From Armatimonadota bacterium (lineage in GTDB: Bacteria > Sysuimicrobiota > Sysuimicrobiia > Sysuimicrobiales > Kaftiobacteriaceae): a stretch of DNA of 64,000 nucleotides. The stretch spans positions 62,001 to 126,000 of the forward strand of contig JAVKHY010000006.1 in assembly GCA_031459765.1 (NCBI GenBank), in the 5' to 3' direction. Each line of letters starts with the position of its first letter. Position 1 is the stretch's first letter. The position numbers were made by a program, and so were the translations under genes. This document shows, one piece after another, positions 50,122-54,202 of the stretch. The notes under the pieces are model-generated. The model was not told the DNA's origin. It saw only the letters and a program-made list of their open reading frames with translations, and made no database searches.

Positions 50122-52353
50122 ATGCGGCACTTCCTCTCCATGATGACGGCGGTGTGCGTCCTGGCGCTGGCCGCGCCGATATTCGGTGCGCCGACCTCTG
50201 TGCCACGCCAATATGTGGGGATCTATGATGAGCTCCAGGGACAGCTGGCGCGGTTCGAGGCCGCGCTGCGGGCCCGATGGGATGGGACGAGAGCACCGGT
50301 GCTGTTCAGCGGGGAACTGTTAGCCGCCAACGGGCACGTCGGCGAGGCGCTGATCCGCCCGGGACGCGAGCAAAGGGTGGAGACCTCCCTGGATGCCTTT
50401 CAGACCCTGGGCCTCCAGGCCGCGACGGTCCAGATCAGCTTCCCCATGCTGTACCGCCCCTTCTACCGCAGCGCTGAGGAGCACGCCGCGTACCTCGCGG
50501 CGTACCGGCAGGTGGCCGCGGCCGTCCGCAGGCGCGGCATGAAGCTCATCGTCAAGTCGCAGGCCATCTTCAGCAAGGGCGGCTGGACGACGTGGGACGT
50601 GGGGTCGTTCTACCGCCGCCTCTCTCTCGACGAGTACATCCGCGGCCGCACCGACGTCGCCCTCACCATCGCCCGGGAACTGCGGCCCGACTACCTGTCC
50701 GTGGTCATGGAACCCGACACCGAGGCGGACCAGACCGGGCTGCCCATGGACACGGCGGCGAACAGTGTGCGCCTCGTGACCTCCGTCCTCAGCGCCCTAC
50801 GCCGCGCCGGCCTCACCGAGATCCGGGTGGGCGCGGGCGTGGGGACGTGGCACCGGCAGTACGATGCCCTGGCGCAGGCCTTTGCCGCGACCGGCGTGGA
50901 CTTCATCGACATCCATGTGTATCCGGTGAACCGGGATTACCTGGACCGTGCCGTGACCGTCGCGTGGATCGCGAAGCGTGCCGGCAAGGCGGTGGCGATG
51001 ACGGAGGCCTGGCTGTACAAAGCGGGCAGCGCGGAACTGTCCCGAGGCGTCACGTCCGAGGAGATCTTCGGCCGCGACGCCTTTTCGTTTTGGGAGCCGC
51101 TGGATCAGAAGTTCCTGGAGGTCATGGTGACCTTCGCCCATGCGGAGCGGCTGGCCTTCTTCTCCCCTTACTGGACGAAGTATTTCTCCGCATACCTGGA
51201 CTTCGAGCAGGCGAAGGGCCTCGCGCCCCGGGACCTCGCCGCCCTCTCCACGCGCGCCGCGGGCGAGGCGCTGGCGGCGGGCCGCTTTACCCAGACCGGG
51301 CTGACGTACAAGACGCTGATCGCCTCGGGAGCCCCTCCCCCGCCGACGGCGCCTTCCTCGACCCCGGGATCGGCGCGCCCCTCCCGGGTGCTGGTCGAAA
51401 ACGGAGGGCGCGTCGCCTGGTCGCATGTCCGAGATCTCATCGCCTACGATCACATCGGGCCGGACGGATCCTACGAGATCTCCACCATCCGGCCGGACGG
51501 CACGGAGTCCCGTTGCCTGACCTGCGGGCAGCGCGCCCTGCCCCGTTCGCACCGGGGGAACCCGGCCTGGCATCCGTCGGGCGACTACCTGGTGCTGCAG
51601 GCGCACAATCCGGCGGTCTCGTCGCATCGAGGACCGCAGGAGCGCTACCTCGGCACGCCCGGCATCGGCATCCACAACGACATCTGGATCATCTCCGCCG
51701 ACGGCGCTCGCGCCTGGAAGGTGACGAATGTCGGGACGGGGGGCGGGGTGCTGCACCCACGGTTCTCCCACGACGGCCGGACTCTGGTCTGGAGCGAGGT
51801 CGTCGATCCGGGGAGGCGCGGTTTGGGCGGGCAGTGGGCGATCAAGATCGCAGAGGTGACCTTCGTCGATGGGGCGCCCCGCGTCACGAACGTCCGGACG
51901 GTGCAGCCGGGCGGGCTCCAGCTCTACGAGACGCACAGCTTCTCGCCGGACGACGGCCGACTCCTGTTCTCCGGCGTGCCGCGGGGAGGAACTTACTTCG
52001 ACCTGGAGATCTACAGCTACGAGTTGCGTTCGGGACGTCTGCTGCGCCTGACCCAGAATCGAGAGTGGGACGAGCATGCCCATTTCACGCCCGACGGCCG
52101 GGCGATCGTCTGGGCCAGCAGCGAGGGGATCGCCATGCGCAAGGATCCCCGGGATCTGCGCCTGGACTACTGGACCATGGCCCCCGACGGCCGGGGCAAG
52201 CGACGGCTGACCTGGTACAACGAGTCGCCGGCCGCCGGCGAGGGGACCGTCGCCGCGGACTTCGAGTTCGGGCCCGACGGCAAGACCATCGTGGCCAAAT
52301 TCGGCGTCGCCGGCCGGGGCGAACGCGTCCTCCTGCTGCGCCTCTTTGACTAG
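50122..52353 (+). CDS. Secreted TIM-barrel glycoside-hydrolase-like protein fused to a TolB-like beta-propeller
   Basis: 743 residues. ATG at 50122 starts a signal peptide (MRHFLSMMTAVCVLALAAP); the upstream GTG at 50074 is less likely. Residues 30-385 look like a (beta/alpha)8 glycosidase barrel with acid/base and nucleophile candidates in LSVVMEPDTEAD and VAMTEAWLYK. After a proline-rich linker (APPPPTAPSSTPGS), residues 415-743 contain PD40/TolB-type repeats such as HPSGDYLVLQ, HDGRTLVW, SPDDGRLLFS and TPDGRAIVWAS. Substrate unknown; the propeller may bind carbohydrate or protein. Confidence 0.7.
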   Translation: MRHFLSMMTAVCVLALAAPIFGAPTSVPRQYVGIYDELQGQLARFEAALRARWDGTRAPVLFSGELLAANGHVGEALIRPGREQRVETSLDAFQTLGLQAATVQISFPMLYRPFYRSAEEHAAYLAAYRQVAAAVRRRGMKLIVKSQAIFSKGGWTTWDVGSFYRRLSLDEYIRGRTDVALTIARELRPDYLSVVMEPDTEADQTGLPMDTAANSVRLVTSVLSALRRAGLTEIRVGAGVGTWHRQYDALAQAFAATGVDFIDIHVYPVNRDYLDRAVTVAWIAKRAGKAVAMTEAWLYKAGSAELSRGVTSEEIFGRDAFSFWEPLDQKFLEVMVTFAHAERLAFFSPYWTKYFSAYLDFEQAKGLAPRDLAALSTRAAGEALAAGRFTQTGLTYKTLIASGAPPPPTAPSSTPGSARPSRVLVENGGRVAWSHVRDLIAYDHIGPDGSYEISTIRPDGTESRCLTCGQRALPRSHRGNPAWHPSGDYLVLQAHNPAVSSHRGPQERYLGTPGIGIHNDIWIISADGARAWKVTNVGTGGGVLHPRFSHDGRTLVWSEVVDPGRRGLGGQWAIKIAEVTFVDGAPRVTNVRTVQPGGLQLYETHSFSPDDGRLLFSGVPRGGTYFDLEIYSYELRSGRLLRLTQNREWDEHAHFTPDGRAIVWASSEGIAMRKDPRDLRLDYWTMAPDGRGKRRLTWYNESPAAGEGTVAADFEFGPDGKTIVAKFGVAGRGERVLLLRLFD

Positions 52354-52366
52354 CCGCTGGAGGGCC

Positions 52367-52395
52367 TTGCGCCCGCCAGCCGGGCATGGTAAAGT
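52367..52395 (+). promoter_or_regulatory. Promoter of the T-box-proC transcript
   Basis: TTGCGC (52367-52372) and extended -10 TGGTAAAGT (TAAAGT at 52390-52395), 17-bp spacing. Expected start near 52402, matching the 5' edge of the T-box leader. Confidence 0.6.
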
Positions 52396-52401
52396 AACGG
52401 G

Positions 52402-52638
52402 CACTATCGCCGTGACGGGGAATGTAGGAGGAGACCCTGCGCGAGCGAGCGCCGTCCATCGGGTGCAAGACGGCGCCGCAGAAGCCCTCCGAACCCACCC
52501 CTGAGCGTGTCGCGACGAGCGGCCGGCGCCCGCCGATACCGGGCAGCGAGAGCCCATCCGCCGCTGCCGGGCGGGTGGGAACCAAGGTGGTACCGCGGAC
52601 GCCCTTCCGCCCTTGAGGCGGAGGGCGCCTTTCATTTT
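52402..52638 (+). ncRNA. T-box riboswitch upstream of proC (proline-type)
   Basis: The conserved T-box AAGGTGGTACCGCGGA (52584-52599) pairs with the acceptor end of uncharged tRNA. It is followed by a terminator stem (52600-52627, CGCCCTTCC against GGCGGAGGGCG with one bulge and one G-U pair) and CCTTTCATTTT. Upstream, Stem I has the conserved GGTGCAAG loop (52472-52479) and the specifier context GAA-CCC-ACC, where CCC (52494-52496) is a proline codon. Uncharged tRNA-Pro should allow read-through into proC, so proline synthesis rises when proline is short. Confidence 0.9.
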
Positions 52639-52655
52639 CGGCGGAGGTGGCCGGA

Positions 52656-53477
52656 GTGGGCATCACGAGCGTGATCGGATTCATCGGCGCGGGCAACATG
52701 GCCGGCGCCCTGGTGCGGGGCCTGCTGGGCGAACGCGTGGTGGCCCCGGCGCACCTGTGGGCGACGAACCGGAGCAACGACGCCCGGCTGGAGGCGTTGC
52801 GCAACCAGTACGGAATCACCGTCACGCGCAGCAAGCGGGAGATCGCCGGCGCCGCATCGGTCCTGATCCTGGCCGTGAAACCAAAGGACATGAGCGAGGT
52901 CCTCCGAGAGCTGGACGGTCTGGTGCGCCGCGACCACCTGGTCATCTCGGTGGCCGCCGGAGTTCCCCTGCGGACCATCGAGGCCGCGTTCCCCGACGCC
53001 GCCGTCGTCCGCGCCATGCCCAACACCTCCGCGGCGGTGCAGGAGTCGGCGACGGCGCTGGCCGCAGGAACGCGCGCCGGCGCCGCGCACCTGTCCACGG
53101 CCGAAGCGATCTTCCGCGCCGTGGGCGACGTGATCACCGTGGAGGAAGAGCTCCTGGACGTCATCACCGGGTTGTCGGGCAGCGGACCGGCCTACGTCTA
53201 CCGGCTGATCGAAGCGATGATCCACGCGGGCACCGAGCTCGGGCTGGAGGCACCGCTGGCGCGGCGGCTGGCCATCCAGACCCTGGTGGGGGCGGCGCGC
53301 ATGCTGGAGACCTCGCGGGAGGATCCGGGTGAGCTCCGGGAGCGGGTCACCTCGCCGGGCGGCACGACGATGGCGGCGCTGCGGGCCCTGGAGGACCGGG
53401 GATTCGCCGCCGCGGTCCGGGAAGCGGTCGGCCGGGCCGCCGATCGGGCCCGCGAGATGGCGGAGGAGTTCGGCTAA
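52656..53477 (+). CDS. proC: Pyrroline-5-carboxylate reductase
   Basis: Last step of proline synthesis, reducing pyrroline-5-carboxylate with NAD(P)H. The 273 residues begin GITSVIGFIGAGNMAGALV (Rossmann loop), continue VLILAVKPKDM and VRAMPNTSAAV, and end with the catalytic region LSGSGPAYVYRLIEAM and LRERVTSPGGTT. GTG at 52656 is preferred because GGAGGTGG lies just upstream; GTG at 52647 is possible. It converges on arsM with a 4-bp overlap. Confidence 0.94.
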   Translation: MGITSVIGFIGAGNMAGALVRGLLGERVVAPAHLWATNRSNDARLEALRNQYGITVTRSKREIAGAASVLILAVKPKDMSEVLRELDGLVRRDHLVISVAAGVPLRTIEAAFPDAAVVRAMPNTSAAVQESATALAAGTRAGAAHLSTAEAIFRAVGDVITVEEELLDVITGLSGSGPAYVYRLIEAMIHAGTELGLEAPLARRLAIQTLVGAARMLETSREDPGELRERVTSPGGTTMAALRALEDRGFAAAVREAVGRAADRAREMAEEFG

Positions 53478-54202
53478 CCTGCGGCTTCGGCAGCCGGCTT
53501 GCGGGCTCTGACCGTGACGCTGAATACCGTCCCGGTCCCCGTGCTCACGGGTTCCACGTCCACAAACCCCGCGGCGCGAATCGCGGCCAGGTAGTCGTCG
53601 AGGTCCAGTGCGCCGCCGACGCAGGCCGCCCAGGCCTCCATGGACCGGCGCACGGTCTCCGGGATCGGGCCGCGGGTCACGATGTCGGAGACGACGAGGC
53701 GGCCCCCCGGCCGCAGGACGCGGAACGCCTCCCGGAACGCGGCCCGCTTGTCGGGGACGAGGTTGATCACGCAGTTGCTGATCACGACGTCGGCGCTGCA
53801 GTCGGCCAGCGGCAGGTGCTCGATCTCGCCCAATCGAAACTCGGCGTTGGCGATCCCGGTGCGCTCGGCGTTCTCCCGCGCCTTCCAGACCATCTCCGGC
53901 GTCATGTCCACGCCGACGGCATATCCCCCGGGAGCGGCCTGGCGGGCGGCCAGCAGCACCTCTCGCCCCGCCCCTGATCCGAGGTCGACCACGACCTCCC
54001 CGGAACGCACCCCCGCGTACTCCAGGGGGCTCCCGCAGCCCAGCGAGGGACCGCTGAAGTGCTCGAGCACCTCCTCGCCCGCAGAGACCTCAGGGGCCCC
54101 GCAACAGCCCGAGGCCAGGGGGCCTTCTCCGCAGCACCCGCCGCCGGCCCGCGCGGCGTAGTGTGCCCGCACCTGCCGTCGGATCTGCTCCGGCGGAATC
54201 AT
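53474..54202 (-). CDS. arsM: Arsenite methyltransferase (ArsM-like)
   Basis: 242 residues. SAM-binding VVDLGSGAGREVLLAA and GVDMTPEMVWKARENAE. Cysteines typical of ArsM are present: GGGCCGEGP near residue 22, SLGCGSP, VISNCVIN and AACVGGALD. The N-terminal CC pairs may help load As(III). The enzyme methylates arsenite to volatile or less bound species. The ATG overlaps the stop of the GNAT gene (ATGA). Confidence 0.9.
   Translation of the reverse strand: MIPPEQIRRQVRAHYAARAGGGCCGEGPLASGCCGAPEVSAGEEVLEHFSGPSLGCGSPLEYAGVRSGEVVVDLGSGAGREVLLAARQAAPGGYAVGVDMTPEMVWKARENAERTGIANAEFRLGEIEHLPLADCSADVVISNCVINLVPDKRAAFREAFRVLRPGGRLVVSDIVTRGPIPETVRRSMEAWAACVGGALDLDDYLAAIRAAGFVDVEPVSTGTGTVFSVTVRARKPAAEAAG

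Follow-up and report, generated by a model that had tools for sequence, protein, structure and literature searches.

The window analysed here, a 64,000-nt stretch of DNA from an Armatimonadota bacterium (Sysuimicrobiota in GTDB), carries at 52414-52639 of its forward strand a transcriptional T-box leader with a proline specifier (CCC), located 5' of proC, the gene for pyrroline-5-carboxylate (P5C) reductase. This leader is very probably a riboswitch for tRNA-Pro(GGG) that works in the way proposed below. Direct support comes from its anatomy, from the agreement of codon with gene and of bulge with tRNA, and from the conservation and distribution of such leaders. As a proline T-box, the element itself is of a familiar kind, and its Stem II is reduced; the unusual part is the series formed by its counterparts in sister species. 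The features of the locus are the following.

52367-52395, + strand: promoter, with -35 box TTGCGC (52367-52372), 17-nt spacer and -10 box TAAAGT (52390-52395)
52414-52506, + strand: Stem I, 93 nt, K-turn flanks GAC and TGAGC (Rfam alignment, fold)
52417-52420 with 52498-52501, + strand: basal Stem I helix GGGG/CCCC, 4 bp (Rfam alignment, fold)
Within Stem I, + strand: distal tRNA-elbow module, AGCGAG ... GGGTGCAAG, in which GGGTGCAAG is the apical loop
52494-52496, + strand: specifier CCC (Pro), in the internal loop directly above the basal helix
52509-52523, + strand: reduced Stem II, a 5-bp hairpin GTCGC/GCGGC with a 5-nt loop (read from the sequence)
52524-52544, + strand: Stem IIA/B pseudoknot (read from the sequence; IIA lies inside the Rfam match), pairing CGG/CCG (52524-52526/52533-52535) and loop GCCC (52528-52531) with GGGC (52541-52544)
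52553-52579, + strand: Stem III, 10 bp with a 7-nt loop, then AA (read from the sequence; Rfam match)
52584-52598, + strand: T-box sequence AAGGTGGTACCGCGG (read from the sequence)
52584-52614, + strand: antiterminator, helices A1 (52584-52587/52611-52614) and A2 (52595-52598/52607-52610), evaluated at -6.3 kcal/mol
52588-52591, + strand: antiterminator bulge TGGT, complementary to tRNA ACCA, the 3' end of tRNA-Pro(GGG)
52601-52639, + strand: intrinsic terminator (terminator scan), hairpin 52601-52626 and T-rich tail GCCTTTCATTTTC
52656-53477, + strand: proC (TIGR00112, 282 bits, cut-off 197)

A first-pass annotation of the sequence had proposed a Stem I landmark, a CCC specifier, a T-box sequence and a terminator ahead of proC. 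All four are found: the landmark is the apical loop of Stem I, the fold places CCC in the internal specifier loop, and the T-box sequence is followed by the terminator hairpin and its T-rich tail. The 5' strand of the terminator, whose region folds at -23 kcal/mol (52599-52644), is the 3' strand of the antiterminator. This overlap, together with the specifier and the Rfam match, supports the reading of a proline-specific, transcription-attenuating T-box. As judged by eye from the sequence, Stem II shows no S-turn and has no room for one. In a free fold of the whole leader, the stability did not exceed that of shuffled sequences (z -1.2) and the antiterminator was not returned as the MFE structure.

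The Rfam T-box model (RF00230) aligns end to end with 52403-52617 at 44.4 bits (E 9.4e-9), below the curated gathering cut-off of 93 bits. A score under this threshold had been named beforehand as refuting a T-box, and it is what was obtained; the end-to-end match nevertheless stands, and the cut-off is misleading here. Indeed, the source genome (G000) holds 12 T-box matches that all score 40-80 bits, none reaching 93, although the specifier of each fits its gene, so that the cut-off is uninformative for this genome. Most T-boxes across the phylum likewise miss it.

Specifiers were read by one rule, as the codon that a single nucleotide separates from a four-nucleotide basal strand followed by NGAGC or a near variant, although TGG and ATC were read by eye, and the T-box genes other than proC were named by eye from translations rather than by family search. 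In all 12 T-boxes, the codon lies one nucleotide before the basal helix and fits the downstream gene: ilvB CTC, thrS ACC, DAHP synthase TGG, valS GTC, metG ATG, ileS ATC, ilvE CTC, proS CCC, glyQ GGG, proC CCC, alaS GCC and pheS TTC. Most of these genes encode aminoacyl-tRNA synthetases. The bulge base also complements base 73 of the cognate tRNA in 12 of 12, with A/U73 for Thr and Gly, C/G73 for Trp (these three being the discriminating cases) and U/A73 for the others; in the proC leader, the UGGU bulge faces A73 of tRNA-Pro(GGG). The cognate tRNAs, tRNA-Pro(GGG) included, are encoded in the genome. A chance match is ruled out as an explanation by the codon agreement. The earlier assignment of CCC to proline holds, as the same codon recurs in other Pro leaders: 30 Pro leaders have CCC and 11 Ala leaders GCC, an invariance that is partly by construction because the comparison accepted only CCC, CCG or GCC.

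A generic sigma-70 scan leaves the proC promoter below its threshold. The promoter announced by the first-pass annotation is nonetheless borne out by the spacing TTGC-N17-TANAGT-N17/18-GACGGGG, conserved in seven proC leaders from seven genomes, among them two shortened forms described below. The likely start of proC is GTG 52656; a longer in-frame alternative, GTG 52647, falls within the Shine-Dalgarno-like GGAGGTG. The gene stands alone, the upstream gene ending at 52353 and the downstream neighbour being convergent, and this neighbourhood, with the conserved promoter, supports a single-gene unit under its own promoter and T-box. The convergent neighbour is an arsenite methyltransferase-like gene (53474-54202 of the window, - strand; NF008823, 264.9 bits). 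A search of the source genome (99% complete) with the proB (glutamate 5-kinase) model gave no match above the cut-off, the two weak partial matches being other kinases; since no proB was found, proC is perhaps the only dedicated proline gene. Proline may thus come from ornithine-derived P5C, with proC as the sole dedicated step.

In the proposed mechanism, the specifier loop of Stem I in the nascent leader would display CCC for recognition by the GGG anticodon, and the tRNA elbow would be held by distal Stem I. With uncharged tRNA, the ACCA end would pair with the UGGU bulge and stabilise the antiterminator, leading to proC transcription; with proline-charged tRNA, the overlapping terminator hairpin would form. 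We infer tRNA binding, amino-acid sensing and read-through from the sequence comparisons.

B. subtilis proI provides a precedent for a P5C-reductase gene that stands alone behind a Pro T-box of its own (PMC9245794). The proC locus had been presented as a clean example of this arrangement: the lone gene under a Pro T-box stands, whereas it has this precedent and is one of 12 T-boxes in its genome. Both B. subtilis proI and proBA share with the proC leader the tRNA-Pro-responsive T-box type (PMC9245794); the proC leader differs in being very GC-rich, in its specifier CCC and in having just a small hairpin as Stem II, and its genome differs in that no proB was found. With regard to the four-class scheme of T-boxes (PMC10482949), the leader shares with Class I (tyrS type) an internal-loop specifier, a terminator/antiterminator pair and the trait of a long Stem I with an elbow module, here AGCGAG and GGGTGCAAG; it differs in a Stem II without visible S-turn and in sister proC leaders without the distal module. 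Its distal Stem I, reduced Stem II and strong G/C codon-anticodon pairing are common to Class II (glyQS type), whereas it is specific for Pro, not Gly, and retains the Stem IIA/B pseudoknot.

The source genome (2.8 Mb) has as its closest named relatives MAGs that were deposited under the names Armatimonadetes and "Terrabacteria group ANGP1". The comparison covered 43 genomes of the phylum, all of one order. In the proC leaders of G006 (same genus) and G002, the promoter, an 18-nt spacing and the basal helix are kept and Stem I has lost everything above the specifier loop, giving the cores GACGGGG-AAACCCA-CCCCTGAGC (G006) and GACGGGG-CCTCCCA-CCCCTGAGC (G002). Such mini T-boxes have lost the distal part of Stem I that contacts the tRNA elbow, the specifier being left in a hairpin loop of about 6-8 nt. 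They number 16 in 12 genomes of two families and precede proC (G006, G002), proS (G000, G006, G003, G017-G020) and alaS (G000, G006, G001, G002, G004, G008, G009), with specifiers that are all CCC or GCC. One alaS leader called mini by a regular expression (L241) proved to have a full Stem I and was excluded from this count. All keep a specifier matching the gene, the Stem IIA/B motif and the T-box sequence, and 15 of the 16 have an intrinsic terminator. In the minis with an identified promoter, only 13-30 nt separate the end of the -10 box from the hairpin, so that an ordinary Stem I would not fit upstream. The alaS minis of G001, G002, G004, G008 and G009 also lack Stem II, the K-turn leading directly into IIA/B, and in every proS mini Stem II is no more than a short hairpin.

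Among 125 gene-assigned T-boxes, mini forms account for 16 of 46 with Pro or Ala specificity versus 0 of 79 others (Fisher 1.6e-8, shared ancestry ignored). When the distal signature was scanned for separately, no T-box outside Pro/Ala proved to lack a distal Stem I, that of the ilvB leader L124 being divergent but present. Judged by eye from genus and family, without a tree, distal Stem I was lost independently at least five times (twice in proC, twice in proS, once in alaS). As MAFFT misaligned 6-nt and 7-nt mini loops, a mini model (R1) was built from four cleanly aligned leaders; its matches were sorted by reading the sequence because it also picks up full T-boxes. Against 343 genomes of other phyla, R1, whose sensitivity is limited, gave four matches, all with full Stem I and none a mini. 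The bare pattern GGGG-N2-6-CCCACCCC-NGAGC was discarded, its six sites being chance occurrences outside any T-box leader. No description of mini Pro/Ala T-boxes was found in open PMC texts.

Known T-boxes with a short Stem I are ileS leaders, mostly under translational control. They belong to Class III, defined by an apical-loop specifier, no elbow module, mostly translational control and a required Stem II (PMC10482949). Like the ultrashort Stem I of Nocardia farcinica ileS, the 16 minis have no distal module and present the specifier in a short apical loop, thus fitting the Stem I trait of this class; they depart from it in being transcriptional (terminators in 15 of 16) and Pro/Ala-specific, and five alaS leaders are devoid of the supposedly required Stem II. 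Transcriptional T-boxes are considered to need a long Stem I generally, since the tRNA has to be captured before the polymerase arrives at the terminator; the absence of Stem II from Gly T-boxes has been explained by strong G/C codon pairing (PMC7583486). In the Pro/Ala T-boxes of the relatives, the module of Stem I that binds the elbow has been lost repeatedly, in some cases together with Stem II, whereas specifier, pseudoknot, Stem III, T-box sequence, terminator and promoter are kept; the all-G/C codon-anticodon pairing would render the lost modules dispensable. We infer that the mini forms still work.

The main competing explanation, possible but distinctly less likely, is that the minis are T-boxes in decay, with tRNA sensing lost and the terminator acting as a constitutive brake. 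It is consistent with the many proS leaders of family f4 and of G007 that consist of a terminator-like hairpin only, without a T-box, and with the proC leader L015, which retains just the T-box end and terminator. The minis, however, retain a gene-matched specifier, the IIA/B motif, the T-box sequence and an unchanged promoter spacing, and persist over several genera. Moreover, the losses are confined to Pro/Ala leaders, which argues against random decay, as this should not select by codon. A shifted register, with a Pro codon such as CCA read by tRNA-Pro(UGG), is very improbable: in some leaders CCCA precedes five pyrimidines and a 4-bp basal helix would allow CCA, but a 5-bp helix is possible there as well and restores CCC plus one nucleotide, and CCC is constant whereas the next base may be A or G; in the window, where the basal helix has 4 bp and the reading is CCC, this register is rejected. 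That the minis are assembly or binning artefacts is scarcely credible, for, although the named relatives are MAGs and many comparison genomes are fragmented, the 16 cases, spread over 12 genomes from two families, have clean junctions and differing loops and helices (GGGG/CCCC, GGAG/CTCC, GGGA/TTCC), and the G006 leader is identical in the public contig L013 (possibly the same assembly).

Other leaders of this order show further arrangements. A complete tRNA-Ala(GGC) gene with CCA lies in the Stem III loop of the ilvE Leu (CTC) T-box leader (L007:1694-1768; G000:C4:43614-43688). It is the only tRNA-Ala(GGC) gene found in the source genome, and its product is the tRNA that the mini alaS T-box would be expected to bind. 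About 17 genomes from three families share the arrangement (further loci L366-L376 and L388-L393); the gene is apparently leuS in G041, and in G006 the T-box core is cut by the contig end. The arms of Stem III on either side of the tRNA covary (GATAGCGT/ACGCTGTC, GACGGACGC/GCGTCCGTC, GACAGCC/GGGCTGTC). In family f4, tRNA-Ala(GGC) is free-standing. No account of a T-box enclosing a tRNA gene was found in open PMC texts. The ilvB Leu T-box is immediately preceded by a match to the Guanidine-I (ykkC-type) riboswitch (L001:1326-1430, 66.1 bits, cut-off 63), the two forming a tandem riboswitch, and similar sequence is present in L148 and L151. The proS leaders L338-L345 and L317 and the proC leader L015 contain little beyond a terminator-like hairpin near the promoter, without a T-box sequence, and are apparent remnants of lost T-boxes. 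The alaS T-box L254 (G041:C18), near a contig end, has IIA/B-like, Stem III and T-box elements and no recognisable Stem I or II, and was possibly truncated by an insertion.

Returning to the mini forms as working riboswitches, it is reasonably probable that the proC leader is one of a lineage-specific group of transcriptional T-boxes that have repeatedly dropped the elbow part, the Stem II reinforcement, or both, only at all-G/C specifiers (CCC, GCC), and that the smallest of them need little beyond the 3' discriminator, the IIA/B pseudoknot and a hairpin bearing the codon to sense tRNA. At the scale of the phylum, the Rfam cut-off conceals most T-boxes of a GC-rich lineage from an inventory. 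Full and mini proC leaders within one genus and under the same promoter are natural pairs for directly testing the ideas on long Stem I and on G/C pairing.
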